Assembly (NCBI RefSeq): GCF_039543825.1
Contig: NZ_BAABKM010000002.1
Coordinates: 2,264,133 to 2,328,132, forward strand
Direction of reading: 5' to 3'
DNA from: Nocardioides conyzicola
Lineage (GTDB): Bacteria; Actinomycetota; Actinomycetes; Propionibacteriales; Nocardioidaceae
Length of the DNA stretch: 64,000 nucleotides
Shown here: positions 45,136 to 61,510 of the stretch, piece after piece
Position numbering within the stretch: position 1 is the first letter of the stretch
How the letters are laid out: each line of letters opens with the position of its first letter
Position numbers and translations under genes: made by a program
The notes under the pieces: generated by a model
Seen by the model: the letters and a program-made list of their open reading frames with translations, nothing else
What the model was told of the DNA's origin: nothing
The model's database searches: none

Positions 45136-45393
45136 TCACCCGGCGGCGTCGACGACGACCTCGTGCACGCCGATCAGCCGGTTGATCTTGGCGGCGACCC
45201 GCGCCACCTGCCAGGTGTCGCCGCGGACCCCGATCACGACGGCGACGTCGTCCCCCGCGCCGACGACGTACTCGAAGTGGTCGATGCTGAACGGCCCGAG
45301 CACCGAGGCGATCCGGGGGAGCATCGCGTTCCCGTCCACCGCGCGCGCCCGCAGGCGCACGGATGGAGCACGGGTGGCCGGGTGCGTGTCCAT
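45136..45393 (-). CDS. Small ACT-like domain protein
   Basis: The 85-aa protein shows the beta-alpha-beta pattern of ACT domains: VRLRARAVDGNAMLPRIASV, then EYVVGAGDDVAVVIGVRGD and ARVAAKINRLIGVHEVVV. Such stand-alone domains bind amino acids or sense metabolites. ATG 45393 is preceded by TACCGT plus 7 nt (leaderless). It is divergent from the peptide-utilisation operon, which may be related by function, but this is not shown. Confidence 0.65.
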   Translation of the reverse strand: MDTHPATRAPSVRLRARAVDGNAMLPRIASVLGPFSIDHFEYVVGAGDDVAVVIGVRGDTWQVARVAAKINRLIGVHEVVVDAAG

Positions 45394-45498
45394 CCTCTGC
45401 ACGGTAGGTGGCCGACCGGGGAGTCGGTTCGTCGGTCTCGACGGGCGCGTGGGGACATCCTTGTCGGATCGGACGAACACCTCCCGTGACCCGACTCC

Positions 45499-45504
45499 TA
45501 GCGT
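45499..45504 (+). promoter_or_regulatory. Candidate -10 box (TAGCGT), head of the peptide operon
   Basis: TAGCGT is followed by GAGCCGC (7 nt) and GTG 45512. It is the only obvious promoter before the operon running to 58633. Confidence 0.5.
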
Positions 45505-45511
45505 GAGCCGC

Positions 45512-46900
45512 GTGAGCAACCTCGATGAACTCCAGGCCTGGATCGACGAGCGGATGCCGGCGCTCCTCGAGAAGTACGGCGTCCCCGCCGCGGCCTGGGG
45601 CGTCCTCGCCGACGGGGCGGTCTTCGACGGCGCCGCCGGGGTGCTCAACAAGGCCACCGGGGTCGAGGCGACGCCCGACTCGGTCTTCCAGATCGGCTCG
45701 ATCACCAAGCTCTGGACGAGCACCCTCGTCCTGCAGCTGGTCGACGAGGGCAAGGTCGACCTCGACGTGCCGGTGCGCACCTACCTGCCGGACTTCCGGA
45801 TCGGCGACGAGGCCTCGGCCGCGGTGATCACCACCCGCCAGCTCCTCACCCACACGGCCGGCTTCGAGGGCGACATCTTCACCGACACCGGTGTCGGTGA
45901 CGACTGCGTCGAGAAGTACCTCGGCGTGCTCACCGAGGTGCCCCAGCTCTTCCCGGTCGGCGAGCGCTTCTCCTACAACAACGCCGGCTACTGCGTGCTC
46001 GGCCGGCTGGTCGAGGTGCTGCGCGAGAAGCACTACGACGCCTGCCTGCGCGACCACCTGTTCGCACCGCTCGGCCTCACGCACGCGGCGACCAACCCCT
46101 ACGAGGCGATCATGTTCCGCGCCGCGATGGGCCACATCGAGCTGGAGCCCGGTGGCGGCTACCAGCCCGCGCCGTACTGGAGCTTCGCCCGGTCGAACGC
46201 GCCGGCCGGCTCGATGCTCTCGATGCGTCCCCGCGACCTGCTGACGTTCGCGGCCATGCACATGCACGACGGCAAGGCCGAGGACGGCACCCAGGTGCTC
46301 GCGCCCGGCACCGCGGAGCGGATGCACGCCAAGGCGGTCGAGCTCCCCGACCTCGGCCTGATGGGCACCTCCTGGGGCCTGGGCTTCGAGCGCTTCGACA
46401 CGCCCGAGGGCGCGATCATCGGCCACGACGGCAGCACGATCGGCCAGAACGCCTTCCTGCGGATCGTCCCCGAGGCGGGCGTCGCGGTCGCGCTGCTCAC
46501 CAACGGCGGCGACGTCGTGTCGCTCTACCAGGACCTCTACAGCCACGTCCTCGACCAGCTCACCGACACCCACCTGCCGTCCCTGCCGGTGCCGCCGGCG
46601 GACCCGCCGGCGGTCGACGCGAGCCGGTACGTCGGGACGTACTCCACCGAGGTCGGCGACATGGTCGTCACCCAGGACGACGACGGCCGGGTCTGGATCG
46701 AGACGATCCCGAAGGGCATGTTCGAGGAGCTCGGCGAGAAGCCCGAGCGCCAGGAGCTCGTCTACTACAGCGACGACAGCCTGATCCCGCTCGAGCCGGA
46801 CCACGGCATGCACATGCCGCACGCCTTCGTCGGTGACGACGGCGAGGGCCGCGCCCTCTACCTCCACGTCGGTCGCGCCATCCGGCGCGCCGGAGCCTGA
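45512..46900 (+). CDS. S12-family serine hydrolase (beta-lactamase fold)
   Basis: The 462-aa protein belongs to the class C beta-lactamase/D-aminopeptidase/DD-peptidase family. Catalytic motifs are S63-I-T-K66 (FQIGSITKLWTS), Y155-N-N157 and a C-terminal HDGSTIGQ (the KTG-equivalent). A C-terminal lipocalin-like domain starts near 375. There is no signal peptide, so it is cytoplasmic. It is clearly paralogous to the C-terminal half of the gene at 52232-55492 (both share DSVFQIGSI-x-K and GxFTDTGxGDD). S12 enzymes often act on D-residue peptides or amides. It begins the operon. Confidence 0.9.
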   Translation: MSNLDELQAWIDERMPALLEKYGVPAAAWGVLADGAVFDGAAGVLNKATGVEATPDSVFQIGSITKLWTSTLVLQLVDEGKVDLDVPVRTYLPDFRIGDEASAAVITTRQLLTHTAGFEGDIFTDTGVGDDCVEKYLGVLTEVPQLFPVGERFSYNNAGYCVLGRLVEVLREKHYDACLRDHLFAPLGLTHAATNPYEAIMFRAAMGHIELEPGGGYQPAPYWSFARSNAPAGSMLSMRPRDLLTFAAMHMHDGKAEDGTQVLAPGTAERMHAKAVELPDLGLMGTSWGLGFERFDTPEGAIIGHDGSTIGQNAFLRIVPEAGVAVALLTNGGDVVSLYQDLYSHVLDQLTDTHLPSLPVPPADPPAVDASRYVGTYSTEVGDMVVTQDDDGRVWIETIPKGMFEELGEKPERQELVYYSDDSLIPLEPDHGMHMPHAFVGDDGEGRALYLHVGRAIRRAGA

Positions 46901-46938
46901 GCACCGCCTCGATGACCACCGCGACGACAGGAATCTCC

Positions 46939-48492
46939 ATGAAGCTAGCCGTCTCCGCCATCAGCCTCTGCGTGACCGCCGCCGTCCTCGCCGGCTGCGG
47001 GGGCAGCGACGACGACCCCGGCTCCGGCAAGTCCGACGCCAGCAAGTACGTCGACGGTGCCACCTTCACCATGGCCATGGCCGGTGACCCCGGCAAGCTC
47101 GACCCGCAGTCCTCGGCGAGCACGCAGCTGTTCACGGTCAACCAGCTCGCCTACGACAACCTGGTCTCGGTCGACGCGAAGACCGGCGAGATCCAGTCCC
47201 AGCTCGCGTCCGCCTGGAAGGTCGACGGCACCACGGTCACGCTGACCCTCGAGAAGGGCATCACCTGCGCCGACGGCAGCGACTTCACCGCGACGACCGC
47301 CGTCGACAACATCACCTACGTGGGCGACCCCAAGAACAAGAGCCCCTACCTCGGCACGTTCCTGCCGGCCGGCGCCACGGCCAAGGCCGACGACGCCGCG
47401 GGCACCGTGACGATCACGCTGGCCCAGCCGGCGCCCTTCGTGCTCAACGGCCTGGCCAGCCTGCCGATGGTCTGCGACGCCGGCATGAAGGACCGCTCGT
47501 CCCTGGCGGCGAAGACCGCTGGCACCGGCCCGTACGAGCTGACCGAGGCCGTGCCCGGCGACCACTACACGTACGAGGTGCGCGACGGCTACACCTGGGG
47601 CCCGAACGGCGCCACGACCGCCGAGAAGGGCATGCCCAAGACCGTCGTCATGAAGATCGTCCAGAACGAGGGCACCTCCGCGAACCTCCTGCTGTCGGGC
47701 GAGATCAACGCGGTCACGGTCCAGGGTCCCGACGCCAAGCGCCTGACCGCTGCGAAGCTCTTCAGCACGAGCACCCCCGCGATGGTGGGTGAGCAGTGGT
47801 ACAACCACGACACCGGCCACGCGACGAGTGACGCCGCCGTGCGGATGGGGCTCACCCAGGCGCTCGACCTCAAGGAGCTCGCCTCGGTGGCGACCGCAGG
47901 TGAGGGCGGACCGGCCACCACGTTCGCCGCCATCCAGCCGGTCTCCTGCCCGGGCGACTCGATCACCGGTGCGCTCCCGGCCCAGGACGTGGACGCGGCC
48001 AAGTCGGCGCTCGCCGGCAAGAAGATCACCTTCCTCTACTCCAGCGCCGCGGGCAGCGCGGTCGCCGCCGCGGCCGAGCTCGCCGTCCAGGAGTGGAAGG
48101 CCGCCGGCGCCGATGTCACGTCCAAGGGCGTCGACGAGACGGCTCTCCAGGGCGCCATCTTCGGCACCGGTGACTGGGACGTCGCCTGGGTGCCGCTCAA
48201 CGTCAACAGCCCCGACCAGCTGACGCCGTTCCTGTCCGGCCCCGGCCTGGCCGACGGCGGCACCAACTTCTCGGGGATCGACAACAAGGACTACACCGAC
48301 GGCGTCGCCGCTGCCAGCGCCAAGAACGGCACCGAGGGCTGCGACACCTGGCTGGACGCGGAGTCCAAGCTCGTCGCGGCAGCGGACGTGGTGCCCTTCG
48401 CCAACAACGAGGTGAAGACCTTCGGCAACGGTGCGGAGTTCGACTACCCCGGTCAGTTCATGCCCACCAGCGTGCGCATGGTGGCGAAGTAG
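46939..48492 (+). CDS. Peptide ABC transporter substrate-binding lipoprotein
   Basis: The 517-aa protein is an SBP_bac_5 (DppA/OppA-like) binding protein. Its lipoprotein signal is MKLAVSAISLCVTAAVLAGC. Typical segments are LDPQSSASTQLFTVNQLAYDNL and a central GTGPYEL. It would capture peptides outside the cell. ATG 46939 follows AGGA by 8 nt; ATG 46912 is in frame but would give an extended signal. The permeases follow 3 nt after its stop. Confidence 0.93.
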   Translation: MKLAVSAISLCVTAAVLAGCGGSDDDPGSGKSDASKYVDGATFTMAMAGDPGKLDPQSSASTQLFTVNQLAYDNLVSVDAKTGEIQSQLASAWKVDGTTVTLTLEKGITCADGSDFTATTAVDNITYVGDPKNKSPYLGTFLPAGATAKADDAAGTVTITLAQPAPFVLNGLASLPMVCDAGMKDRSSLAAKTAGTGPYELTEAVPGDHYTYEVRDGYTWGPNGATTAEKGMPKTVVMKIVQNEGTSANLLLSGEINAVTVQGPDAKRLTAAKLFSTSTPAMVGEQWYNHDTGHATSDAAVRMGLTQALDLKELASVATAGEGGPATTFAAIQPVSCPGDSITGALPAQDVDAAKSALAGKKITFLYSSAAGSAVAAAAELAVQEWKAAGADVTSKGVDETALQGAIFGTGDWDVAWVPLNVNSPDQLTPFLSGPGLADGGTNFSGIDNKDYTDGVAAASAKNGTEGCDTWLDAESKLVAAADVVPFANNEVKTFGNGAEFDYPGQFMPTSVRMVAK

Positions 48493-48495
48493 TCG

Positions 48496-49497
48496 ATGGC
48501 CCTGGCGAGCTCGGTCGCCCCGACCACCAGCCCACGGGTGGGAGTGACCTCCCTCCCGTGGGTGCGGTTCGGGCTGCGACGTCTGGGCCGGTTGCTGGTG
48601 TCCCTCTGGGTGCTGGTCACGGCGTCGTTCCTGATGATCCACCTGATCCCCGGAGACGCGGTGCGGGCCGCACTCGGCCCGACCGCACCGGCGACGCTGG
48701 TGGCGGCCAAGCGCGAGGAGATGGGGCTCGACGACCCTCTCCTGGTGCAGTACTGGCACTACCTGCAGGGCCTCGTCACCGGTGACCTCGGGACGTCGCT
48801 GGTCTCCCAGCTGCCCGTCTCGGAGATCGTGTCGCAGCGGCTGCCCGCCACCCTCACCCTGGCCCTGCTGGGCTTCCTGTTCGCGGTCGCCGTCGCGGTG
48901 CCGCTGGGCGTCACGATGGGGGTGCTGACCCGCCGCGGCCACGGCCACCGGACCGAGCTGGCGTTCACCACCGGCAGCGTCGTGCTCGGCATCATCCCCG
49001 ACTTCCTGATCGGTGTCGGCCTCGTCTACGTCTTCGGCGTCCAGCTCGGCTGGCTCCCGGTGGCGGGCAACGACTCCGCGTCGGCGTACGTCCTGCCGGT
49101 GCTGTCGCTCGCGATCGGCCCGCTCGCGATCCTGTCCCGGATCATCCGCGTCGAGATGGTCACCGTGCTCCAGGCCGACTTCGTGCGTACGGCGCGCGCC
49201 AAGCGACTGCCCAAGCGGACGGTCTACCTCGGCCACGCGCTGCCCAACGCGCTGACCGCGTCGCTCACCCTGGGCGGGCTGATCCTCAGCGGGATGGTCG
49301 CAGGCACGGTGCTGGTCGAGAACGTCTTCGCCTGGCCCGGCCTCGGCAGCACCATCGTGTCGTCGATCCTCAACAAGGACTACCAGGTGGTGCAGGCGAT
49401 CGTCCTCGTGTACGGCGTCGGCGTGCTGCTCGTGAACACCCTGGTCGACGTCGCGCTCGCCCTGCTGGACCCGCGCTCGACGATCAGGGAGGACTGA
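48496..49497 (+). CDS. Peptide ABC transporter permease (DppB-like)
   Basis: The 333-aa membrane protein has six hydrophobic segments and the DppB family layout: LGRLLVSLWVLVTASFLMIHLIPGDAVRAALGP at the N-terminus and the inner-loop motif YVRTARAKR-type (DFVRTARAKRLPKRTVYLGHALPNA). It forms the channel with the next protein. Confidence 0.92.
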   Translation: MALASSVAPTTSPRVGVTSLPWVRFGLRRLGRLLVSLWVLVTASFLMIHLIPGDAVRAALGPTAPATLVAAKREEMGLDDPLLVQYWHYLQGLVTGDLGTSLVSQLPVSEIVSQRLPATLTLALLGFLFAVAVAVPLGVTMGVLTRRGHGHRTELAFTTGSVVLGIIPDFLIGVGLVYVFGVQLGWLPVAGNDSASAYVLPVLSLAIGPLAILSRIIRVEMVTVLQADFVRTARAKRLPKRTVYLGHALPNALTASLTLGGLILSGMVAGTVLVENVFAWPGLGSTIVSSILNKDYQVVQAIVLVYGVGVLLVNTLVDVALALLDPRSTIRED

Positions 49498-49498
49498 C

Positions 49499-51427
49499 GT
49501 GCAGCGCTGGAGAAGCGTGCTGCGCACGCCCGTCGGCCTGACCGCGACCCTGTCCACGGGCGCCGTGCTGGTGCTCGCCGTGATCGCCCCGATCCTGTGG
49601 ACCGACGACGCGAACGCCATCGACACCGGCAACATCCTGGCCGGGCCCTCGGCCGACCACTGGGCCGGCACTGACAACCTGGGTCGCGACATCCTCTTCC
49701 GGACCCTGGTCGCCACCCGGCTCTCGGTCGAGCTCGCCCTGGCCGCGACCGCGATCGCGGTCGTCGTCGGCCTGCTCCTCGGCGCAGCGGCCTTCCTGCT
49801 CGGCCGCCGGTCCGGGCGCCTCGTCAGCGCCGGCATCAACATCGCGGTGGCGTTCCCGGGCATCCTGCTCGCGTTGTTCTTCGCGGTCGTCTTCGGCGTC
49901 GGCGCGACCGGCGCGGTGCTCGCGATCGGCTTCGCCGGAGCCCCGTCGATGGGGCGCCTCACCCAGACCCTGGTCGCCGGGATCGCCGCCCGCGACTACG
50001 TCGCCGCGGCCCAGGTCGCCGGCGTCTCGCGGGTCCGCATCCTGGTCCGGCACATCCTCCCCAACGTCTCGGAGCCGCTGGTCGTGAACGCCACGATCGG
50101 TGCGGGCGGTGCCCTGCTGTCCTTCGCAGGGCTGTCGTTCCTCGGGCTCGGCGTGCAGCAGCCCTCGTACGACTGGGGCCGGCTGCTCTTCGACGGCGTC
50201 AGCTCCATCTACGTCAACCCGGCCTCGGCGCTGGCGCCCGGTGCGGCCGTGCTCGTCGCCGGACTGGCCTTCAACCTCTTCGGCGAGTCGGTCGCCAAGG
50301 TCTTCGGCGTCGGTGCCGTCGGCGGGATCCCCACGCTGGCCGTCAGCGACGCGGCGCCCGCCGCCGACCAGGCAGCGGTCGCCACGCCCACGCACGCGGT
50401 CTCCGACGTCGTGCTCGACGTCCGCGACCTCGAGGTGTCCTTCCCCGGTCCGCACGGGCCGATCCGTCCGGTCCGCGGCCTCACCTTCGCCGTACGCCGG
50501 GGCGAGGCGGTCGGCGTCGTGGGGGAGTCGGGCTCCGGCAAGTCCCTGACGGCCCTGGCCATCTCGCGGCTCGTCGACGACCTCGGCCGCGTCGACGCCA
50601 CCCGGCTCGAGCTGCTCGGCCACGACCTGCGGGCAGCGGACACCCGCGCCCAGCGGCAGCTGCTCGGCACGTCGCTGGCGATGGTGTTCCAGGACCCGAT
50701 GACGTCGTTCAACCCGACGAAGCGGATGGGCGGCCAGCTCGCCGAGGTCGCCCGCCACCACCAGGGCATGGACCGCCGCTCCGCGTTGGCCCGCGCCGTC
50801 GACCGGATGCGTGCCGTCCGGATCGACGACCCGGAGCACCGCACGCACCAGTACCCCCACGAGTTCTCGGGCGGCATGCGGCAGCGCGCGATGATCGGGA
50901 TGGGCCTGATGGGCACACCCGCCCTGATCGTGGCCGACGAGCCGACGACCGCCCTGGACGTGACCGTCCAGCAGCAGGTGCTCGACCTGCTCGCCGCGAT
51001 CCGTGCCGCCGACGACGTCGCGCTGGTCCTGATCAGCCACGACGTCGCCGTCGTCGGCCAGGTCTGCGACCGGGTGCTCGTCATGTACGCCGGCAAGATC
51101 GTCGAGGACCTGCCGGCCGCGGACCTCTCGGCCGGTGCCCGGCACCCCTACACGCGGGCGCTCGTGGCCGCCGTGCCCGACATGGACACCGACCTCTCCC
51201 AGCCGCTCGCGGTGATCCCGGGCCGGCCGGTCGACCCCGCCGACGTGCCGGCCGGGTGCGCGTACGCCGCGCGCTGCCCCCTCGCGACGGCCCAGTGCCG
51301 CACCGACGAGCCGCCGCTGACGACCGACCCCGCCGGGCGCCGGGTCGCCTGCTGGCGCGCGGGCGAGCCCATCGACATCGAGATCCAGGACCGCGAGATC
51401 GACCTCGAGGAGGTGGAGGCATCATGA
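49499..51427 (+). CDS. Fused peptide ABC permease-ATPase (DppC-DppD)
   Basis: The 642-aa protein joins two normally separate subunits. Residues 1-280 are a DppC-type permease with about six helices and the coupling loop AAAQVAGVSRVRILVRHILP (169-188). After a linker (about 281-302), residues 303-620 form an ATPase with Walker A GESGSGKS (342-349), signature FSGGMRQR, Walker B LIVADEPTTAL and the C-terminal oligopeptide domain (PGRPVDPADVPAGCAYAARC). GTG 49499 follows AGGGAGGA. The frame is open throughout with no stop between halves. Confidence 0.93.
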   Translation: MQRWRSVLRTPVGLTATLSTGAVLVLAVIAPILWTDDANAIDTGNILAGPSADHWAGTDNLGRDILFRTLVATRLSVELALAATAIAVVVGLLLGAAAFLLGRRSGRLVSAGINIAVAFPGILLALFFAVVFGVGATGAVLAIGFAGAPSMGRLTQTLVAGIAARDYVAAAQVAGVSRVRILVRHILPNVSEPLVVNATIGAGGALLSFAGLSFLGLGVQQPSYDWGRLLFDGVSSIYVNPASALAPGAAVLVAGLAFNLFGESVAKVFGVGAVGGIPTLAVSDAAPAADQAAVATPTHAVSDVVLDVRDLEVSFPGPHGPIRPVRGLTFAVRRGEAVGVVGESGSGKSLTALAISRLVDDLGRVDATRLELLGHDLRAADTRAQRQLLGTSLAMVFQDPMTSFNPTKRMGGQLAEVARHHQGMDRRSALARAVDRMRAVRIDDPEHRTHQYPHEFSGGMRQRAMIGMGLMGTPALIVADEPTTALDVTVQQQVLDLLAAIRAADDVALVLISHDVAVVGQVCDRVLVMYAGKIVEDLPAADLSAGARHPYTRALVAAVPDMDTDLSQPLAVIPGRPVDPADVPAGCAYAARCPLATAQCRTDEPPLTTDPAGRRVACWRAGEPIDIEIQDREIDLEEVEAS

Positions 51428-51494
51428 ATCACCCCACGACGTTCTCGACCTCCCCCGCTCCGCTCCTCCGTCCGACAACGTCGAGGGGACCCCG

Positions 51495-52235
51495 ATGAGC
51501 GAGCTCCGGTTCGAGGACGTCACCGTCCGCTACGGCTCCACCCTCGCCGTCGACGAGGTCAGCCTCGTCGTGCCCGCCGGCCAGGTCGTCGGCCTGGTGG
51601 GGGAGTCCGGCTCGGGCAAGTCCACGCTGGCCCGCGCCGCGGTCGGCCTCGCGCCGTACGCCGGCCGCATCCTGCTGGGCGACCAGCCGGTGCCGGTGCG
51701 CGGCCGGCACCGGCCGCTGCAGATGGTCTTCCAGGACCCCTACTCCTCGCTCGACCCCCGGATGAGCATCGGCGAGAGCGTCGCGGAGGCGATGCCGCGC
51801 GGGAGCTCCCGGGGCGAGCGGCGTGCGGAGGTCGAGCGGCTGCTGGAGCTCGTCCACCTCGACCCGACGCGGGCCGGCGCCCGCCCGTCCGAGCTGTCCG
51901 GCGGCCAGCGGCAGCGGGTCGCGCTGGCCCGGGCGCTGGCCGGCCGCCCCCAGGTCGTCATCGCGGACGAGATCACCTCTGCCCTCGACGTCTCGATCCA
52001 GGGTGCCGTGCTCAACCTGGTCCGCGAGCTCCAGGCCGAGCTCGGTCTCTCGATGCTCTTCATCTCCCACAACCTCGCCGTCGTGCGGTACGTCGCCACG
52101 CACGTCGCCGTCATGCGCCACGGCCGGATCGTCGAGCAGGGCCCCACCGCCCAGGTGCTGGCCGCGCCCGAGCACGACTACACGCGCGAGCTGCTCGCCG
52201 CCGTCCCCGGAACCACCACCAGGAGCCCCCGATGA
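51495..52235 (+). CDS. Peptide ABC transporter ATPase (DppF-like)
   Basis: The 246-aa ATPase has Walker A GESGSGKST, signature LSGGQRQRVALARAL and Walker B VVIADEITSALDVS. It lacks the C-terminal oligopeptide-binding extension, so it is the short partner of the fused ATPase. ATG 51495 is chosen for GAGGGG before it. The stop overlaps the next ATG (ATGA). Confidence 0.93.
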   Translation: MSELRFEDVTVRYGSTLAVDEVSLVVPAGQVVGLVGESGSGKSTLARAAVGLAPYAGRILLGDQPVPVRGRHRPLQMVFQDPYSSLDPRMSIGESVAEAMPRGSSRGERRAEVERLLELVHLDPTRAGARPSELSGGQRQRVALARALAGRPQVVIADEITSALDVSIQGAVLNLVRELQAELGLSMLFISHNLAVVRYVATHVAVMRHGRIVEQGPTAQVLAAPEHDYTRELLAAVPGTTTRSPR

Positions 52236-55200
52236 CCCGACGCACCCGCCTCGACGACCTCACCTCCCTCGCGGTGCCGTCGCAGCCGGCGCTCTCGCCC
52301 GACGGCAACCGCGTCGTCTACGTGCTGCGCACGCTCGACGTCGCCGAGGACCGCAACGTCGACCAGCTCTGGACCGTGCCGGCGGCCGGCGGCACCGCCC
52401 GTCGACTCACGACCGGCACCACGGACACCGCGCCCGCCTGGTCGCCGGACGGCTCGCGGCTCGCCTTCCTGCGCGACGGCCAGGTGCACCTCCTCGCGGC
52501 CGACGGCGGCGAGGCGGAGCAGGTCACCGACCTCGCGCTCGGCGCCGGTGCCCCGGTCTGGAGCCCCTCCGGCGACCGGATCGCCTTCACCTCCCCGGTC
52601 GACCCCACCGACGGCACCGGACCGCTGGTGACGACGGGCGTGGACTACCAGGCCGACATGGCCGGCATGTTCGGGGCGGTCCGCAACCAGCTGCACCTGC
52701 TCGACGTCGCCTCGGGCGACTGCCGCCGGCTCACCGACGGCGACCACGCCGGCCAGCCGGCCTGGTCGCCCGATGGCAGCACGCTGGCCTTCACCCGCAG
52801 GGTCGGCGCGGACAGCGACCTCACCTTCCGCACGGCGGTCCACCTCCTCGACGTGACCGACGCCAAGGCCGAGCCGCGCGTCGTCGCCCTCGAGGACGGC
52901 ATCGCCGGCACCGTGTCGTACGCCGCCGACGGCCGCAGCCTGCTCGTCGTCGGTCACCCCACGCTCTCCCTGGGCCACGCCCACCTGCTGCGCGTCCCGC
53001 TCGACGGCGGCGACCCGGTCGACGTCGCGGTCCACCTGGACCGCAACGTGATGCCCGGCGGCCCGGCGTACCCCGGCGCCCGTCCGGTCGAGACCGCCGA
53101 CGGCCGCCTGCTCTTCGCGATCCGCGACCGCGGCTGCTCCCACCTGTGGGACGAGCAGGGCCCGGTCCTCGCCGGCGCCGGCCGCGTCGTCTCCGGTCTC
53201 TCCGTCGCCGGCGGCACCGCCGTCGTCGCGCTCGCCACGCCCACGTCGTACGGCGAGATCGTCGCGCTCGACCTCGCCTCCGGCGCCGAGACCGTGCTGA
53301 CCGACCATGGCAACCACGACCTCGAGCTGTTCGTGCCCGAGGAGCGGACCTTCACGATCTCCGACGGCACCGAGGTGCAGGCCTGGCTGGTCCGCGACCC
53401 CGAGCGTCCGGGTCCGCTGCCGCTGCTGCTCGACGTGCACGGCGGACCGCACAACGCCTGGAACGCCGCCGCCGACGAGATGCACTTCTACCACCAGGAG
53501 CTGGCCGCGAAGGGTTGGGCGGTGCTGTTGGTCAACCCCCGCGGCAGCGACGGCTACGGCGAGGCGTTCTACGACGGCGTCCAGGGCGCGTGGGGCGTCG
53601 CGGACCACCTCGACTTCCTGGAGCCGATCGACGCGCTGGTCGCCGAGGGCATCGCCGACGCCGACCGGCTGGCGGTCACCGGCTACAGCTACGGCGGCTT
53701 CATGACCGCCTGGCTGACCGCCCACGACGACCGGTTCAAGGCCGGCGTCGCCGGCGGCATCGTCTGCGACCTGGTGAGCGAGTACGGCGCCAGCGACGAC
53801 GGCGCGATGATGGGCCGCTACGAGCTCGGCGGCACTCCCTGGGACCACGCGGAGGCGTACGCCGCGATGTCGCCGATCACCCGCGTCGGCCGGGTGACGA
53901 CCCCGACGCTCGTGCTGCACGGCAAGGACGACCTGACCTGCCCGGTCGGCCAGGCCCAGCAGTGGCACACCTCGCTGCGCGACCTCGGCGTCCCGACCGA
54001 GCTGGTGCTCTACCCGGGTGCCTCCCACGTCTTCATCCTGCTCGGCCCGCCCTCGCAGCGGCTCGACTACGCCCGCCGCGTGGTCGACTGGGTCGAGAGG
54101 TACGCCGTGCGCGGCGGTCGTCCGCGCCTCGACCTGGCCCACTGGCAGCGCCGGCTCGAGGTCCTGGCGGAGAAGCACCACGTTCCCGGTGCGCAGGTCG
54201 GTGTCCTCGACGGGGACGAGCTCGTCGAGGCGGCGTACGGCGTCCTCAACAAGCGGACCGGCCAGCCGGTCACCACCGACTCGGTCTTCCAGATCGGCTC
54301 GATCAGCAAGGTGTGGACGGCGACCGTCGTGATGCAGCTGATCGACGAGGGCAGGCTCGCGCTCGACACGCCGGTGAACGAGATCATCCCCGAGCTCCAG
54401 CTGTCCGACCCGGACGTCACCAAGCGGCTGACGGTCTGGCACCTGCTGACCCACACCAGCGGCATCGACGGCGACGTCTTCACCGACACCGGCCGCGGTG
54501 ACGACGCGCTGGAGAAGTACACCGAGCTGCTGGCCGACGTCGCCCAGAACCACCCGCTCGGCGCCACCTGGTCCTACTGCAACTCCGGGTGGTCGCTGCT
54601 CGGCCGCGTGATCGAGAAGCTCACCGACCAGACCTGGGACCAGGCGATGAAGGAGCGGCTGTTCACGCCCCTCGGCCTGGACCACACCGTCACCCTGGCC
54701 GAGGAGGCCATCCTCTTCGCCGCTGCCGTCGGGCACGTCGACGCCGACGGGGAGCAGGTCCCCACGCCGGTGTGGGACCTGCCCCGCTCGGTAGGCCCCG
54801 CGGGCCTGATCAAGTCGACGGTCCGCGACGTGCTCGGCTTCGCCCAGCTGCACCTCTCCGGTGGGCGCGCGGCCGACGGCACGCAGGTGCTCTCGCCGGA
54901 GTCGACCGAGGCGATGACGCGCCACGAGGCCGACCTGCCGGACAAGTTCATCCTCGGTGACTCGTGGGGCCTGGGCTGGATCCGGTTCGGCTGGGACGGC
55001 GAGCGCCTGATCGGCCACGACGGCAACACGCTCGGCCAGGCGGGGTTCCTGCGACTGCTGCCCGGGCAGGACGTCGCCGTGGCGCTGCTGACCAACGGCG
55101 GCAACACGCGCGACCTCTACGAGGAGCTCTACCGCGAGATCTTCCGCGAGGTCGCGGGCGTCGAGATGTCCACGCCGTTCGCGCCGCCGGCCGATCCGGT

Positions 55201-55492
55201 CGACGTCGACGTCACGCCCCACGTCGGCACCTACGCGCGCTCCTCGGTGCGCATGGAGGTGCTCGCGCCGGAGGGTGGTGACGGGCCGCGGCTGCGCACC
55301 ACGCTCCTCGGACCGCTGGCGGAGATGGTCCCTGACCCGGTCGACGAGTACCCGATGGTGCCGGTCGGTCCCGCGCTCTTCGCCGTCCGGCCGCCAGGTG
55401 CCGACACCTGGGCGCCGGTGACCTTCTACGAGCTGCCGACCGGGGAGCGCTACGTGCACTTCGGTGTGCGGGCCACCCCGAAGGTGGACTGA
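52232..55492 (+). CDS. Fusion of S9 peptidase and S12 serine hydrolase
   Basis: The 1086-aa polypeptide has an N-terminal WD40-like propeller (1-370), an S9C acylaminoacyl-peptidase-like domain (about 375-625) and a C-terminal S12 domain (about 640-1086). S9 residues are LLLDVHGGPHNAWN, Ser486 in TGYSYGGF, an acid in HGKDDLTCPVG and His599. S12 residues are S690-I-S-K693, Y782-C-N784 and the HDGNTLGQ loop. Both active sites look intact. It is the downstream relative of the S12 gene at 45512 and couples to the M20 gene (TGATG). It likely combines two steps of peptide breakdown in one chain. Confidence 0.9.
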   Translation: MTRRTRLDDLTSLAVPSQPALSPDGNRVVYVLRTLDVAEDRNVDQLWTVPAAGGTARRLTTGTTDTAPAWSPDGSRLAFLRDGQVHLLAADGGEAEQVTDLALGAGAPVWSPSGDRIAFTSPVDPTDGTGPLVTTGVDYQADMAGMFGAVRNQLHLLDVASGDCRRLTDGDHAGQPAWSPDGSTLAFTRRVGADSDLTFRTAVHLLDVTDAKAEPRVVALEDGIAGTVSYAADGRSLLVVGHPTLSLGHAHLLRVPLDGGDPVDVAVHLDRNVMPGGPAYPGARPVETADGRLLFAIRDRGCSHLWDEQGPVLAGAGRVVSGLSVAGGTAVVALATPTSYGEIVALDLASGAETVLTDHGNHDLELFVPEERTFTISDGTEVQAWLVRDPERPGPLPLLLDVHGGPHNAWNAAADEMHFYHQELAAKGWAVLLVNPRGSDGYGEAFYDGVQGAWGVADHLDFLEPIDALVAEGIADADRLAVTGYSYGGFMTAWLTAHDDRFKAGVAGGIVCDLVSEYGASDDGAMMGRYELGGTPWDHAEAYAAMSPITRVGRVTTPTLVLHGKDDLTCPVGQAQQWHTSLRDLGVPTELVLYPGASHVFILLGPPSQRLDYARRVVDWVERYAVRGGRPRLDLAHWQRRLEVLAEKHHVPGAQVGVLDGDELVEAAYGVLNKRTGQPVTTDSVFQIGSISKVWTATVVMQLIDEGRLALDTPVNEIIPELQLSDPDVTKRLTVWHLLTHTSGIDGDVFTDTGRGDDALEKYTELLADVAQNHPLGATWSYCNSGWSLLGRVIEKLTDQTWDQAMKERLFTPLGLDHTVTLAEEAILFAAAVGHVDADGEQVPTPVWDLPRSVGPAGLIKSTVRDVLGFAQLHLSGGRAADGTQVLSPESTEAMTRHEADLPDKFILGDSWGLGWIRFGWDGERLIGHDGNTLGQAGFLRLLPGQDVAVALLTNGGNTRDLYEELYREIFREVAGVEMSTPFAPPADPVDVDVTPHVGTYARSSVRMEVLAPEGGDGPRLRTTLLGPLAEMVPDPVDEYPMVPVGPALFAVRPPGADTWAPVTFYELPTGERYVHFGVRATPKVD

Positions 55493-56628
55493 TGGAGCTC
55501 GCCCCTTCGTTGACAGAGATGCTCGACGACATCCGCGAGCTCATCGAGTGCGAGTCGCCCTCGGCCGACCTCGCGGCCGTCGCCCGGTCCGCCGACGTGG
55601 TCGCCCGCGTCGGTGAGCGCCGCCTCGGCGTCGCGCCCGAGCGGATCGTCCTGGACGGCCGCACCCACCTGCGCTGGCGGCTCGGCAGCGGCACGTCACG
55701 GGTGCTGGTGCTCGGCCACCACGACACCGTCTGGCCCCTCGGCTCCCTGGCCACCCACCCGTGCACCGTCGAGGACGGCGTGCTCCGCGGGCCCGGGTGC
55801 TTCGACATGCTGGCCGGTCTGGTGATGGCGTTCCACGCCCTGACCGGCCTGGACGGCGTCACGCTGCTCGTCACCGGCGACGAGGAGCTCGGCTCGCCGA
55901 GCTCGAGGGAGCTGATCGAGGAGGAGGCCCGGCTCGCCGAGGCCGCGCTGGTCCTGGAGGCCTCCGCCGACGGCGGCGCCCTCAAGACCGAGCGCAAGGG
56001 CGTCTCCCTGTACGACGTCCGCGCCGTCGGCCGCGCCGCGCACGCCGGCCTCGAGCCCGAGGCCGGGGTCAATGCGACCGTCGAGCTCGCCCACCAGGCG
56101 ATCGTCGTCGCGGGGCTCGGTCGCCCCGAGCTCGGCACGACCGTCACGCCGACGGCGAGCCGGTCCGGCACCACGACCAACACCGTCCCGGCCGAGGGGT
56201 CGTTCTCCGTCGACGTACGGGTGCGCACCCTCGAGGAGCAGGACCGGGTGGACGCGGCGATGCGCGGCCTCCGGCCCGTGCTGCCGGGTGCGGTGCTCGA
56301 GGTCACCGGCGGACCGAACCGCCCGCCGCTCGAGGCAGCGGCGTCTGCCGCGCTGTTCGACCGGGTGCGCGGCCTCGCCGTACATCTGGACCTGGCGGAG
56401 CCGACCGCCGCGGCCGTCGGTGGCGCGTCCGACGGCAACTTCACCGCCGGCGTCGGCACCCCCACGCTCGACGGCCTCGGCGCCGTCGGCGGCGGGGCGC
56501 ACGCCGACGACGAGCACGTGCTCGTGGACGAGCTGCCCGGGCGGACGGCGTTGCTCGCCGCCCTGGTGGCCGACCTGCTGGCGCAGCCGACGAACCCGGT
56601 CCTCACGGCTGGTGCGGCCCGACGATGA
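55492..56628 (+). CDS. M20-family deacylase/carboxypeptidase (G2-like)
   Basis: The 378-aa metallohydrolase shows VLVLGHHDTVWP, GPGCFDMLAG and LVTGDEELGS, with an LLEASADGG-type region and a dimerisation domain (GRAAHAGLEPEAGVNA). It resembles carboxypeptidase G2/desuccinylase-like members. Next to an N-acylamino-acid racemase it is best read as the N-acyl-L-amino acid deacylase, but a carboxypeptidase is possible. It overlaps its neighbours by 1 and 4 bp. Confidence 0.85.
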   Translation: MELAPSLTEMLDDIRELIECESPSADLAAVARSADVVARVGERRLGVAPERIVLDGRTHLRWRLGSGTSRVLVLGHHDTVWPLGSLATHPCTVEDGVLRGPGCFDMLAGLVMAFHALTGLDGVTLLVTGDEELGSPSSRELIEEEARLAEAALVLEASADGGALKTERKGVSLYDVRAVGRAAHAGLEPEAGVNATVELAHQAIVVAGLGRPELGTTVTPTASRSGTTTNTVPAEGSFSVDVRVRTLEEQDRVDAAMRGLRPVLPGAVLEVTGGPNRPPLEAAASAALFDRVRGLAVHLDLAEPTAAAVGGASDGNFTAGVGTPTLDGLGAVGGGAHADDEHVLVDELPGRTALLAALVADLLAQPTNPVLTAGAARR

Positions 56629-57530
56629 CGACCCCGGAGGACCTCAGCAGCATGGTAGGCGTGACGAACCTGACGAGCGTTGACACGGATCTGGACGAGG
56701 CGGTCCAGGCCGCCGATGCGGCCGCGCTGGCGGCCGGGGTGTCCGTCCGCGAGGTCTCGGAGCTCGCCGAGCTGGCGGCCGTCGTCGACCTCTACGCGGG
56801 CATCTGGGGGCGCGACGCGAACCCGCCGATGACGCTGGAGCTCCTGCGTGCGTTCACCAAGGCCGGCAACTACGTCGGCGGCGCGTTCGAGGACGGCCGG
56901 CTCGTCGGTGCCTGCGTCGGCTTCTTCCACGCCCCGTCCGAGGACGCGCTGCACAGCCACATCGCGGGCGTGTCCGGCGACGTGCTCGGGCGCCACGTCG
57001 GCTTCGCCCTCAAGCTCCACCAGCGCGCCTGGGCGATGCTGCGCGGCGTCGCGGACATCGCCTGGACCTTCGACCCGTTGGTGAGCCGCAACGCCTGGTT
57101 CAACCTGGTCAAGCTCGCGGCCCACCCGGTCGAGTACCTGCCGAACTTCTACGGCGCCATGGCCGACACCATCAACGGCGACGACGACTCCGACCGGCTG
57201 CTCGTGCGCTGGAGCCTGCGCGACCCGGCCGTCGTCGCCGCGTGCGCCGGGAGCACCTCGCCGGCGCTGGTCGCCGAGGAGCTCTCGGCGGGGGCCGTCG
57301 TCGCGCTCGGCATCGGCGCCGACGGCGGCCCCGAGCCCGGGCCGCTGGACGGGCGGACCAGCCTGGTCGCCGTACCTCCCGACATCAGCGCCCTGCGGGC
57401 CGCCGACCCGGCGCTCGCGCAGAAGTGGCGGCTGGCCGTCCGCGAGGCGCTCTTCGCGCTGCTCGCGGACGGGGCCCGGATCGCGGGCTTCGACCGGTCC
57501 GGCTGGTACGTCGTGAGGAGGGACGCGTGA
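56625..57530 (+). CDS. GNAT-family N-acyltransferase (COG3375-like)
   Basis: The 301-aa protein has a GNAT core (AAVVDLYAGIWGRDANPP, FEDGRLVGACVGFFHAP, then LKLHQRAWAMLRGVADIAWTFDPL and NAWFNLVKLAAHPVEYLPNFYG). Such larger GNATs occur with N-acylamino-acid racemases, where an N-succinyltransferase acylates D-amino acids. The acyl donor is not visible here. ATG 56625 overlaps the M20 stop (ATGA); ATG 56652 is an alternative. It ends with GTGA into the racemase gene. Confidence 0.82.
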   Translation: MTTPEDLSSMVGVTNLTSVDTDLDEAVQAADAAALAAGVSVREVSELAELAAVVDLYAGIWGRDANPPMTLELLRAFTKAGNYVGGAFEDGRLVGACVGFFHAPSEDALHSHIAGVSGDVLGRHVGFALKLHQRAWAMLRGVADIAWTFDPLVSRNAWFNLVKLAAHPVEYLPNFYGAMADTINGDDDSDRLLVRWSLRDPAVVAACAGSTSPALVAEELSAGAVVALGIGADGGPEPGPLDGRTSLVAVPPDISALRAADPALAQKWRLAVREALFALLADGARIAGFDRSGWYVVRRDA

Positions 57531-58633
57531 AGCTCGAGGGAGTGGAGCTGCGCCGGGTGTCGATGCCGCTGGTGTCGCCGTTCCGGACGTCGTTCGGGAC
57601 GCAGACCGCTCGGGAGCTGATCCTCCTGCGCGTGGTCACCGACGAGGGCGAGGGCTGGGGTGAGTGCGTCGCGATGGCGGACCCGCTCTACTCCTCGGAG
57701 TACAACGACGGCGCCGCCGACGTGCTGCGCCGCTTCCTGGTGCCCGCCCTGGCGGCCTCCGGACCCCTTGACGCGCACGCGGTGGCGACGGTGCTGGAGC
57801 CGTTCAAGGGCCACCGGATGGCGAAGTCCGCGCTGGAGATGGGCGTCCTCGACGCCGAGCTCCGGGCCCAGGGGAAGTCCTTCGGCAGCGAGCTCGGCGC
57901 CGTCCACGACCGGGTGCCGTGCGGCGTCTCGGTCGGGATCATGGACAGCATCCCGGCGCTGCTCGACGCGGTCGGCGGGTACCTCGACGAGGGCTACCTC
58001 CGGATCAAGCTCAAGATCGAGCCCGGCTGGGACGTCGAGCCGGTGCGCGCGGTCCGGGAGACGTACGGCGACGACGTCCTGCTGCAGGTGGACGCCAACA
58101 CGGCGTACACGCTCGCCGACGCCGAGCTGCTCGCGGGCCTGGATCCCTTCGACCTGCTGCTGATCGAGCAGCCGCTGGACGAGGAGGACGTGCTCGGGCA
58201 CGCCGACCTGGCCCAGCTGATCGCCACGCCCGTCTGCCTCGACGAGTCGATCGTGTCGGCGCAGTCCGCCGTCGCGGCGATCCGGCTCGGCGCCTGCGCG
58301 ATCGTCAACATCAAGCCGGGCCGCGTCGGCGGCTACCTGGAGGCCAAGCGGATCCACGACGTCTGCGTCGAGGCCGGCGTCCCGGTGTGGTGCGGCGGGA
58401 TGCTCGAGACCGGGCTCGGCCGCGCGGCGAACGTCGCCCTGGCCGCCCTGCCGGGCTTCACCCTGCCCGGAGACACCTCGGGCTCGGGTCGCTACTACCA
58501 CCGCGACATCACGACGCCGTTCGTGCTCGACGACGGGCACCTCACGGTCCCCACGGGTCCGGGTCTCGGCGTGGCTCCGCTGGAGGACGCCCTGGCCGAG
58601 GTGACCACGTCGACCGAATGGCTGACCGCCTGA
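57527..58633 (+). CDS. N-acylamino-acid racemase/o-succinylbenzoate synthase-type enolase-superfamily enzyme
   Basis: The 368-aa protein shows the complete active-site set: K161-x-K163 (RIKLKIEPG), metal ligands Asp189 (VDANTAY), Glu214 (LIEQPL) and Asp239 (CLDESI), and the opposite base Lys263 (NIKPGR). These positions and the length agree with what I know of the Amycolatopsis NAAAR/OSBS enzyme. No menaquinone genes are near, so racemisation of N-acyl (probably N-succinyl) amino acids fits the context. GTG 57527 overlaps the GNAT stop; GAGGAGGG precedes it. Confidence 0.92.
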   Translation: MKLEGVELRRVSMPLVSPFRTSFGTQTARELILLRVVTDEGEGWGECVAMADPLYSSEYNDGAADVLRRFLVPALAASGPLDAHAVATVLEPFKGHRMAKSALEMGVLDAELRAQGKSFGSELGAVHDRVPCGVSVGIMDSIPALLDAVGGYLDEGYLRIKLKIEPGWDVEPVRAVRETYGDDVLLQVDANTAYTLADAELLAGLDPFDLLLIEQPLDEEDVLGHADLAQLIATPVCLDESIVSAQSAVAAIRLGACAIVNIKPGRVGGYLEAKRIHDVCVEAGVPVWCGGMLETGLGRAANVALAALPGFTLPGDTSGSGRYYHRDITTPFVLDDGHLTVPTGPGLGVAPLEDALAEVTTSTEWLTA

Positions 58634-58640
58634 CCGGTCG

Positions 58641-58646
58641 TAGGCT
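58641..58646 (+). promoter_or_regulatory. Candidate -10 box (TAGGCT), PucR gene
   Basis: TAGGCT lies 9 nt before ATG 58656, directly after the operon end. The regulator probably has its own promoter. Confidence 0.4.
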
Positions 58647-58655
58647 GTCGCCGCC

Positions 58656-60287
58656 ATGAACCCGGTCCCGACCTCACGCCCACGCGCCGGTCTCGCCCGC
58701 GTCCTGGACGACCTCGGCGCCACCCTGCTCGACCTCGTGCACGGCGACGCCGAGCGCACCGACGAGATCGGCGGGGTGGTCATCCACGACCCCGTCGACG
58801 TCCCCGTGCTGCCGCCCGACGCGCTGGTGCTCGGCGTCGGGGTCGACGATCCCGACCAGGTCGTCGCCCTGCTGGAGGTCCTCGGCGCCGCCGGTGCCGC
58901 CGGACTGGTGCTCCGGGCGCCGGTCCAGGTGACCCCCGAGGTCCGCGCGGCCGCGGACGCCGCCGGAGTCGCGCTGCTCGGCCTGAGCCGGGGCGCCCCG
59001 TGGGCCCACCTCGCCGCGATGCTGCGCTCGCTGCTCGCGGAGGGCGACGTCCGGGTGGCCGACGAGGAGACGCTGGGTGGGCTGCCCTCGGGCGACCTCT
59101 TCGCGGTCGCCAACGCGATCGCGTCGCTCCTCGACGCCCCGATCACCATCGAGGACCGCAGCTCCCGCGTGCTCGCCTTCTCCGGCCGTCAGGACGAGGC
59201 CGACCCCTCACGCGTCGAGACGATCCTGGGCCGGCAGGTGCCCGAGCGCTACGCCCGGATCCTCAACGAGCGCGGGGTCTTCGGCGAGCTCTACCGCACC
59301 GACCAGCCGGTCTTCATCAGCCCGGCCGACGACCAGAGCGCCTTCTCGATGCCCCGCGTCGCGATCGCCGTCCGCGCCGGTGACGAGGTGCTCGGCTCCA
59401 TCTGGGCCGCCGTGTCGGGCCCGCTGAGCGCCGAGCGCACGGAGTCGCTCGTGGACGCCGCCAAGCTCGTCGCCCTCCACCTGCTCCGGGTCCGCGCCGG
59501 TGCCGACGTACGCCGACGGGTGCGCGCCGACCTGGTCAGCTCGGTCTTCGAGGGCGGCAGCGGCGCCCGGGAGGCGCTCGAGCGGCTCCGGCTGCGGGAC
59601 ACGTCGCTCGTCGTCTTCGGGGTCACCCTGGCCGGCCACGAGTCGGTGGCGGACGCCTCCACGGCCCACGAGCTGCAGCGGCTCGCCGACGCGTTCGCCC
59701 TCCACCTCAACGCCGTCAACCCGCGGTCGGCGGCCGCGCTGCTCGGCGGCGTCGTCTACGGCCTGGCGGCGTCGAGCGGCACCGTCGACGAGAGCGAGCA
59801 GCGCGCCGTCCAGCTCGCCACCGACTTCCTGGACCGGATCGGTGACCGCTCGCAGGCCGTGGTCGCCGTGGGTGGCGCTGCCACGACCGTCGGCGAGATC
59901 GTCGAGGCGCGGATCGCGACCGACCGCATCCTGCGGGTCGTGCGCGAACGCCCAGTGGGCAAGCAGGTTGTGCGGCTGGCCGACATCCAGACCGATGCGC
60001 TCCTCCTCGAGCTGCGCGACCTCGCGGCGGCCCGCAGCGAGCGGCCCACCGGTCCGCTCGGCCGCCTCATCCAGTACGACCGTGACCACCAGGCCCACCT
60101 GGTCGACACCCTGCACGCCTGGCTGGATGCGTTCGGCGACGTGGCCCAGGCAGCGGAGACGCTCTACGTGCACCCCAACACGTTCCGCTACCGCCTCCGG
60201 CGGGTCACCGAGGTCGGCCAGCTCGACCTGCGCGACCCGCGGCAGCGGTTCGCGGTGATGCTCCAGCTCGCCGTCCTGGGCGACTGA
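58656..60287 (+). CDS. PucR-family transcriptional regulator
   Basis: The 543-aa protein has an N-terminal PucR-like sensor segment (10-125), a GAF-like region (about 145-270, FAVANAIASLLDAPITIEDR), a GGDEF_2-like central domain and a C-terminal PucR HTH_30 (LHAWLDAFGDVAQAAETLYV, then HPNTFRYRLRRVTEV). PucR proteins usually activate catabolic genes in response to their substrate. It directly follows the peptide/racemase operon, so it is the likely regulator. Confidence 0.92.
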   Translation: MNPVPTSRPRAGLARVLDDLGATLLDLVHGDAERTDEIGGVVIHDPVDVPVLPPDALVLGVGVDDPDQVVALLEVLGAAGAAGLVLRAPVQVTPEVRAAADAAGVALLGLSRGAPWAHLAAMLRSLLAEGDVRVADEETLGGLPSGDLFAVANAIASLLDAPITIEDRSSRVLAFSGRQDEADPSRVETILGRQVPERYARILNERGVFGELYRTDQPVFISPADDQSAFSMPRVAIAVRAGDEVLGSIWAAVSGPLSAERTESLVDAAKLVALHLLRVRAGADVRRRVRADLVSSVFEGGSGAREALERLRLRDTSLVVFGVTLAGHESVADASTAHELQRLADAFALHLNAVNPRSAAALLGGVVYGLAASSGTVDESEQRAVQLATDFLDRIGDRSQAVVAVGGAATTVGEIVEARIATDRILRVVRERPVGKQVVRLADIQTDALLLELRDLAAARSERPTGPLGRLIQYDRDHQAHLVDTLHAWLDAFGDVAQAAETLYVHPNTFRYRLRRVTEVGQLDLRDPRQRFAVMLQLAVLGD

Positions 60288-60346: not shown

Positions 60347-61510
60347 ATGACGCTCTTCGACGCGACCATCGTGGTCGCCGTGCTGGCAGTCGGGTGCCTC
60401 GGCGCGTACGACGGCCTGGTGCGGGCCTTCTGGGCGCTGCTCGGCATCCTCGCCGGCACCGCGCTGGGCATGGTCGTGGTGCCGCTCCTCTTCGGCAGCG
60501 TCGACCTCTCGCTGTGGGTCGGGCTGCTGTCGCTGGTGCTGCTGATCGGGCTGGCCGCCGGGGGTCGCGAGGTGGCGGTCCGCCTGGAGAAGCGGGGGCG
60601 CGCCCGGTTGGGCTGGACGCCGGTGCGCTGGCTGGACCGCGTCGGTGGCGCCGGACTCGGGGTCGCCGCCGGACTCGGGTTCAGCTGGATGGTCGGGCTC
60701 GCCCTCGCCGGCTCGACCCTGCCCGACCTCGCCCCGGCCGCCAACGGCTCGATGCTGCTGCGCACCCTCGACAACACACTGCCACTGAGCCACTTCATCG
60801 CCCAGCGCTTCGAGGAGCTCGGCGACAGCACGGACTTCCCCCGCTACGTCGACGTGTTCACCACCGAGGAGATCGTCCCCGTGCCGCCGCCGCCGAAGGG
60901 AGTGGTCGACCGGCCCGGGGTGGTGCGGGCCTCCGACTCGGTCTGGCGCATCCGCACCCACGACGCCGGCCTCACCGGCTCCGAGGGCTCTGGCTTCCTG
61001 ATCGCCCCGGGTCGCCTGATGACGGCCGCCCACGTGATCTCCCGGTCGCAGAGCATCGACATCGACACCGCCGACGGCAAGCTGCCGGCCACGATCGTGG
61101 TGTGCGACCCGGTGCACGACGTCGCCGTGCTCGACGTCCCCGGCCTCACGGGGGCCGACCTCACCTTCACCTCGGCGGCGGGCGGCGACCCGGCAGCGGT
61201 CATCGGGTACCCGCGCAACGGCCACCTGCGGCTCACCCCGGCGCGCGTGCGTGAGCGACTCGACTGGCAGTCGGCGGACATCTACGGCCACGGCCGCTAC
61301 GACCACGACGCCTACTCGGTGCGCGCCGAGGTCCACACCGGCAACTCGGGCGGCCCGATGGTGGCTCCCGACGGTCGCGTCCTGGGCGTCGTCGTGGCCT
61401 ACTCGCGAGCCGACGCGGACACGGCGTACGTCCTCACCAGCGACCAGGTCGCCGATGCCGTCGACCGCGGCCGGCGCGCGCAGACCGGTGCCACCGTCAG
61501 CTGCCACTGA
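60347..61510 (+). CDS. marP: MarP-like membrane serine protease (CvpA + trypsin-like)
   Basis: The 387-aa protein has an N-terminal CvpA-type domain with four membrane helices (1-125) and an extracytoplasmic trypsin-like domain with His229 (TAAHV), Asp258 (VHDVAVLD) and Ser334 (TGNSGGPM). This layout and length match MarP/Rv3671c, which protects against acid and oxidative stress. Two Cys (253 and 386) could form the regulatory disulfide. ATG 60347 follows GGGAGG. Confidence 0.9.
   Translation: MTLFDATIVVAVLAVGCLGAYDGLVRAFWALLGILAGTALGMVVVPLLFGSVDLSLWVGLLSLVLLIGLAAGGREVAVRLEKRGRARLGWTPVRWLDRVGGAGLGVAAGLGFSWMVGLALAGSTLPDLAPAANGSMLLRTLDNTLPLSHFIAQRFEELGDSTDFPRYVDVFTTEEIVPVPPPPKGVVDRPGVVRASDSVWRIRTHDAGLTGSEGSGFLIAPGRLMTAAHVISRSQSIDIDTADGKLPATIVVCDPVHDVAVLDVPGLTGADLTFTSAAGGDPAAVIGYPRNGHLRLTPARVRERLDWQSADIYGHGRYDHDAYSVRAEVHTGNSGGPMVAPDGRVLGVVVAYSRADADTAYVLTSDQVADAVDRGRRAQTGATVSCH

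Follow-up and report, generated by a model that had tools for sequence, protein, structure and literature searches.

A conserved actinobacterial operon, probably for the use of peptides carrying D-amino acids, and its predicted twin-palindrome operator

The stretch of Nocardioides conyzicola DNA considered here, the window, is 64,000 nucleotides (nt) long (G000:C2:2264133-2328132, from a genome of 4.96 Mb) and includes, at 45512-60287, ten plus-strand open reading frames (ORFs) encoding hydrolases, a peptide importer, an acyltransferase, a racemase and a PucR-type regulator. The available evidence is that these form a PucR-controlled operon for the utilisation of peptides carrying D-amino acids, a reading to which we give a probability of roughly 0.7. 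The operon would be a variant of a known D-to-L conversion pathway, the new aspect being its union with an importer, peptidases, PucR and an operator. Among the titles and abstracts listed in a literature search, none describes this cluster or operator; such lists being limited in length and subscription journals mostly uncovered, this is weak evidence for novelty. We also lean, with less assurance, towards the view that actinobacteria share a PucR-governed, twin-palindrome-marked regulon for D-residue peptides, working by acylation, racemisation and deacylation, with the classical Amycolatopsis racemase as its core enzyme; the assignment of that enzyme as a menaquinone o-succinylbenzoate synthase (OSBS) with accidental racemase activity would then be the wrong way round in vivo.

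The genes are tightly packed on the plus strand, as the first-pass annotation had stated, with distances between successive genes of +11, +3, +1, +67, -4, -1, -4, -4 and +22 nt, and the domains claimed for them are found with domain libraries, the GNAT excepted. The first encodes an S12 serine hydrolase of 462 residues (S12a; 45512-46900; PF00144, E 1.1e-61), with SITK, YNN and HDG motifs and cytoplasmic by sequence. A peptide-type ATP-binding cassette (ABC) importer is then encoded by genes for a solute-binding lipoprotein (46912-48492; PF00496, E 1.5e-42; lipobox LAGC), a DppB-type permease (48496-49497; PF00528 and PF19300), a fused DppC-type permease and DppD-type ATPase (49499-51427; PF00528, PF00005 and PF08352) and a second, short ATPase of DppF type (51495-52235; PF00005, E 1.3e-29). 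These are followed by a 1086-residue fusion of an acyl-peptide-hydrolase-like S9 part with an S12 part (52232-55492; PF07676, PF00326 and PF00144; no export signal seen), an M20 metallohydrolase of carboxypeptidase G2 type, the proposed N-acyl-L-amino acid deacylase (55492-56628; PF01546), the GNAT acyltransferase, the proposed D-amino acid N-acyltransferase (56625-57530), an N-acylamino-acid (N-succinylamino-acid) racemase of the NSAR/OSBS subfamily (NSAR; 57527-58633; TIGR01928, 291 bits, cut-off 200.65) and the PucR/CdaR-type transcription regulator, the proposed operator-binding protein (58656-60287; PF13556, E 2.5e-21). Judging from this arrangement, the ten genes would be co-transcribed.

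Gene order is conserved well beyond this genome. The loci fetched for comparison comprise 38 of 38 non-own places in the genus, 38 of a further 41 in the order and 34 of 69 non-own places in a phylum sample. By profile matches, the complete order is present in 35 of the 76 genus and order loci (13/38 and 22/38, respectively), four of which (L107, L111, L113 and L117) have a split, partial or doubled match in one gene, and in none of the 34 phylum-sample loci; the same ten genes are also found on a linear plasmid of Streptomyces sp. SYP-A7193. Nineteen of the 22 full-order loci in the order belong to one large-genome genus, g242; as the GNAT relatives listed include proteins of Kribbella, this is probably the genus concerned. 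Nine further genus loci (L016, L033-L036, L038-L040 and L046) have, at the position of the fusion, a gene that matches the S12 half only, which makes the fusion a variable feature of the genus. In the own genome, two of seven S12 matches fall inside the operon; across 12 hand-picked named genomes with an NSAR, the background is 209 matches in about 105 Mb, i.e. about 0.04 per 21-kb stretch, and S12 is present in 9/12 of their NSAR loci. Given the share of the genome's S12 matches located here, together with the order conserved in other loci, the operon is not a chance juxtaposition.

A broader view is provided by 80 named loci, the best of at least 587 NSAR loci, a selection that favours close relatives. 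In these, the NSAR is accompanied by the GNAT in 73, PucR in 52, M20 in 51, S12 in 45, a DppB-type permease in 36, S9 in 25, and an M19 dipeptidase and an Amidohydro_3-type gene in 13 each, the parts recurring in other gene orders across further actinobacterial genera. In Deinococcus ficus, the order is NSAR, GNAT, two permeases, binding protein, S12, Amidohydro_3, M19, S12 and an RpiR-type regulator. Plasmids of Priestia, Stenotrophomonas and Sulfitobacter also carry GNAT-NSAR pairs, with amino acid ABC genes next to the pair in Sulfitobacter. The joining of an acyltransferase, racemase and deacylase triad to an importer and peptidases, which had been proposed from this one genome, is conserved and apparently co-regulated beyond it.

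The upstream regions of the operons are otherwise hard to align, yet two TTCGTC-N6-GACGAA palindromes are common to them, and constitute a predicted operator, new in this analysis, in which a tandem palindrome precedes the first gene. In the window the palindromes are at 45428-45445 and 45460-45477, 32 bp apart, each with 10/12 consensus bases, and the pair ends 34 nt 5' of the S12a start codon; Nocardioides-type loci have a spacing of 32 bp and g242 loci one of 31 bp, with the exception of L099 (g242), where it is 32. The upstream regions considered were those of the window and 44 loci, 45 in total; nine of them, with the S12a start absent from the fetched stretch or wrongly placed in it, were set aside, and in 32 of the 36 usable ones (exceptions L014, L016, L027 and L098) the two best palindrome matches are 31 or 32 bp apart, a spacing found in 2.2% of 20,000 random stretches from the same loci. 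Over the 76 genus and order loci, there are 25 pairs at a spacing of 31 and 8 at 32, the other 40 spacings having a mean of 0.93 and a maximum of 6; the 80 named loci give 8 and 14, respectively, with 7 at the best other spacing. The sole pair of 31/32-bp spacing in the phylum sample, at 4869-4918 of L054, is in a locus with two S12 genes, M19 and PucR. A strict form of the pattern is insensitive, missing many loci whose pair is found by the looser score; it has one match in the own genome, at the operon, and 13 matches at 12 places (one on both strands) in 11 of the 147 order genomes, with none for a reversed control. Ten of the 12 places are inside fetched cluster loci, and the other two are in genomes without a GNAT match.

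A -10-like hexamer, TAGCGT, is located at 45499-45504 on the plus strand, 7 nt 5' of the start codon, and a CTAGCGT-like block is conserved in the upstream regions, from which a short leader or a leaderless mRNA is predicted for the operon. A sigma-70 consensus scan found no site, and a terminator consensus scan was without useful signal.

The palindrome pair is associated with cluster genes irrespective of which of them comes first. Counting a cluster-family gene as associated when it starts at most 330 nt from the pair, on either side and in the right orientation, 56 of 58 pairs lie upstream of such a gene (21/22 in the named loci, 33/34 in the genus, order and phylum loci, and 2/2 on plasmids), compared with 26 of 93 at control spacings, which cover the named loci (10/36) and the genus, order and phylum loci (16/57) but not the ten plasmid loci. 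The genes behind the pairs, in rearranged clusters too, are those for GNAT, PucR, S12, the binding protein, S9-S12 and the Amidohydro_3-type protein. The pair precedes the last of these in some Amycolatopsis, Streptomyces, Kutzneria and Acrocarpospora loci, being scored there in L165, L167, L168, L184, L187 and L091; none is scored there in L158, from Amycolatopsis orientalis DSM 43388, the Amidohydro_3-type protein of which has D-aminoacylases and an N-acyl-D-glutamate deacylase as its closest solved relatives. As the operator tracks the cluster genes after rearrangement, the racemase, the peptidases and the importer probably belong to one regulon. An operator pair is present in 46 of 127 loci with PucR vs 2 of 73 without (p = 9e-9, for lineages that are not independent), and PucR is likely the protein that binds the twin palindrome.

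The window NSAR aligns without gaps over 366 residues with PDB 1SJA (E 1.9e-183) and has the catalytic set K161/K163, D189, E214, D239, K263 and R266 (the last in K-P-G-R). Both lysines of the KxK motif are conserved in 67/67 aligned sequences, and D189, E214, D239 and K263 in 66/67, with a gap in one. R266, which we take to be tied to racemase specificity, is arginine in 66/67 (a gap in one) and, by pattern, in 80/80 named loci; PDB 7s8w has glutamine at this position. By analogy with its close relatives, the window enzyme would have N-acylamino acid racemase activity.

It might nonetheless be proposed that the racemase is the menaquinone OSBS, its location in a peptide operon being incidental. 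This is, in our view, the least probable of the alternatives weighed here. Another enolase-superfamily gene of the own genome, at C2:1148238, encodes a MenC of PRK02901 type (442 bits, cut-off 288); the best match of the gene beside it is o-succinylbenzoate-CoA ligase (menE-like), at 284 bits under a model cut-off of 345, a shortfall that counts for the proposal, and MenB is encoded elsewhere. Because a separate MenC adjoins a menE-like gene, the NSAR is unlikely to be the organism's own menaquinone OSBS, and the window racemase is probably not the MenC of this genome; the first-pass annotation had recognised that a racemase acting only as an OSBS would undo its interpretation, and the second gene counters this. 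The frequent company of the GNAT (73/80 named loci) also speaks against an OSBS role. A MenC above cut-off is present in 8 of 12 hand-picked NSAR-bearing genomes; among the four others, Actinomadura, Streptomyces naganishii and Catenulispora lack MenB at E 1e-60, which likewise argues against such a role there, with MqnA/MqnD-type genes present in the latter two and not in Actinomadura. Planotetraspora has two separate M20-GNAT-NSAR sets (L227 and L189) and a MenB, with no MenC over the cut-off.

The Amycolatopsis NSAR/OSBS is described in the literature as biologically an OSBS (PMC4215206). The NSAR of A. orientalis DSM 43388 (L158) has, as counted on the alignment, 9 differences from 1SJA in 366 residues (about 97.5% identity). 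Its gene is in the order Amidohydro_3-type gene, M20, operator (overlapping the end of the M20 match), GNAT, NSAR, operator, PucR, and the same genome has its own PRK02901 MenC (444 bits; G635) and a MenB; in a related species (L160), an operator is followed by S12, binding protein and permeases. The gene context of L158 argues for D-amino acid use by the Amycolatopsis NSAR, opposite to the OSBS label.

The acyltransferase has no Pfam, NCBIfam or PDB sequence match. Its AlphaFold2 model has a mean predicted local distance difference test (pLDDT) score of 87, and in a Foldseek comparison with the PDB all 50 listed rows are GNAT-type acetyltransferases (best E 9.9e-7; 400 matches in all at E<=0.001). 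The template modelling (TM) score of 0.38-0.45 by query length implies that the model is matched over part of its length only; on the model, the protein is of GNAT fold. There are 2490 homologues at E<=0.001 among the scored candidates, the named proteins among those listed being from Nocardioides; at E<=1e-20, relatives are present in 35/118 genus, 46/147 order and 66/396 phylum genomes, the own genome included. In one protein (P0092), the GNAT runs in frame into the NSAR start as a single ORF of 463 residues, the NSAR part of which looks out of frame, and this joined ORF may be an error. Four loci (L048, L041, L130 and L131) have the GNAT and PucR, with no NSAR in the fetched stretch, L048 having also the whole peptide ABC importer; either these GNATs have another use, or the NSAR is elsewhere.

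The GNAT-NSAR pair is more widely distributed than the peptide part, and so works without the importer. Ten representatives of the conserved neighbours of the bare pair in other lineages were scanned: five are gyrase A, a DUF3566 protein, MauE, LGT and a branched-chain amino acid permease, and the other five have no Pfam match. In the phylum sample, L071, L074, L080, L081 and L084 have the pair near gyrA and a DUF3566 gene. An alternative role for the triad would be to process N-acylated amino acids imported as such, the GNAT performing an unrelated step. In favour of such a role, the M20 enzyme and, in sister clusters, the Amidohydro_3-type gene resemble deacylases, as the S9 part does acyl-peptide hydrolases. 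Plain hydrolysis, however, needs no GNAT, yet the GNAT is the commonest counted partner of the NSAR (73/80 named loci), making this proposal very improbable, if marginally less so than the OSBS one.

The catalytic residues are intact in the window S12a and in both halves of the fusion, as well as in the NSAR. The SxxK, YxN and HxG motif residues of S12a are invariant in 38/38 aligned sequences; in the S12 half of the fusion, the five residues scored, S, K, Y, N and H, are kept in 43/43, and the S9 triad in 35/43, the other eight, which include S12-only genes, having gaps or other residues. The best PDB sequence matches of S12a and the fusion S12 part are IS11 and 6ksu, with D-peptidase chains among the more distant relatives, including for S12a alkaline D-peptidase and D-amino acid amidase; for the S9 part they are 8wt1 and 5yzm. 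PDB sequence relatives of the M20 enzyme at E<=1e-10 are carboxypeptidase G2 only. The binding protein is closest to 6lu2, from which a literature search for its ligand gave nothing useful, and the lipobox pattern is present in 39/41 sequences. Gene order and the shared operators suggest that the importer is dedicated to the pathway. A crude hydropathy test finds no export signal in S12a, the fusion or M20.

It can be proposed that the lipoprotein and ABC importer take up peptides, which the cytoplasmic S12 hydrolase and S9-S12 fusion would cut, the S12 parts probably at D-residues. A freed D-amino acid would be acylated by the GNAT, probably with succinyl-coenzyme A as in the Geobacillus precedent; the NSAR would then equilibrate the N-acyl-D- and N-acyl-L-amino acids, a reaction known for close relatives, and the M20 enzyme would strip the acyl group off the L form, drawing the conversion one way. 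The site of control by PucR is probably the twin palindrome upstream of S12a, such that all the genes would be turned on together by an effector. Import followed by cleavage, acylation, racemisation and deacylation is the simplest sequence, since the hydrolases lack an export signal and the binding protein has a lipobox.

The first-pass annotation had suggested cell wall fragments as an example, and the operon could accordingly be taken to recycle cell-wall stem peptides. MurR/RpiR-type regulators are found near NSAR genes in Priestia, D. ficus, Sulfitobacter and Cytobacillus, and murein peptide use in Bacillus employs peptide ABC importers and enolase-superfamily epimerases. The domain matches of the ten genes, by contrast, include no amidase, LD-carboxypeptidase, gamma-D-glutamyl endopeptidase or MurNAc (N-acetylmuramic acid) enzyme, and the D-Ala and D-Glu of the wall have dedicated racemases; we consider recycling of this type unlikely. 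Of the earlier interpretation, therefore, the gene set, the triad and the link to importer and peptidases stand, and the cell-wall source is not specifically supported, the ten genes being without a muropeptide-specific domain. Slightly less probable again is a defensive role, in which S12a and the S9-S12 fusion inactivate imported nonribosomal peptide antibiotics containing D-residues, the triad only clearing the debris. S12 enzymes include D-stereospecific resistance peptidases, and D-peptidase chains are among the PDB relatives of both S12 parts; protection, however, would favour action outside the cell, whereas the hydrolases are without an export signal by the crude test, the importer would carry the drug inward, and the GNAT, racemase and M20 would seem better suited to nutrition.

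Several observations weigh against use of the operon for D-residue peptides, or against its generality. The nearest structures of both S12 parts, IS11 and 6ksu, are not D-peptidases, the S12 family also holds esterases, cyclases and beta-lactamases, and specificity is unreadable from sequence. In the 34 phylum loci, NSAR is found in 31, M20 in 4, S12 in 4 and DppB/DppC-type permeases in none, and there is one palindrome pair (spacing 32), with no enrichment; within the 80 named loci alone, the link between pair and PucR is weak (p = 0.07). Several of the named loci consist of GNAT-NSAR alone or NSAR alone, seven being without the GNAT, and the absence of a peptide link among the neighbours of the bare pair tells against its serving peptides in every case. 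An OSBS role is possible for the Planotetraspora NSAR.

Other features border the operon. An 85-residue ORF at 45136-45393 on the minus strand, divergent from it, resembles, by eye only, a small ACT-type protein; it has no Pfam match, is found by tblastn in 4 of the 44 loci with full or S12-only operons, and is not counted in the unit. A tRNA-Phe gene (45005-45080, minus strand) is on the same side. Located 3' of pucR is a gene for a Colicin V/CvpA and trypsin-like protease protein (60347-61510, plus strand), and beyond this neighbour are tRNA-Glu and tRNA-Asp genes (61571-61646 and 61868-61944, both on the plus strand).

The natural role of NSAR/OSBS enzymes, which are useful biocatalysts and a standard case of enzyme promiscuity, is disputed. 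With the context described here, which combines an importer, D-peptide-type hydrolases, deacylases and a shared operator, that role can be tested directly in tractable soil bacteria, and the operator provides a handle for finding further members of the regulon. Peptide-bound D-amino acids may be returned to the nitrogen cycle by the route that the operon represents, which is found in many actinobacterial genera.

With respect to known systems, the operon is most readily compared with the irreversible D-to-L conversion that Sakai et al. are said to have described in 2006 in Geobacillus kaustophilus, reportedly involving an N-succinyltransferase, an NSAR and an M20 desuccinylase. As in that organism, a GNAT, an NSAR/OSBS-subfamily racemase and an M20 enzyme are encoded side by side, here with 4-nt overlaps each; the window operon differs from the pathway so described in having a peptide importer, S12, an S9-S12 fusion, PucR and a conserved twin-palindrome operator. 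The dppABCDE-ykfABCD genes of Bacillus subtilis similarly bring together a peptide importer, a D-aminopeptidase and an enolase-superfamily epimerase. The B. subtilis epimerase, however, acts on the dipeptide L-Ala-D-Glu with no acyl carrier step, whereas here a free amino acid would be acylated, racemised and deacylated. The closest likeness at the level of the racemase is to the Amycolatopsis NSAR/OSBS (PDB 1SJA, 4A6G and 7S8W), as seen in the gap-free alignment with 1SJA, the catalytic residues and R266. In contrast with the OSBS label that the Amycolatopsis enzyme has in the literature (PMC4215206), the context here argues for D-amino acid use.

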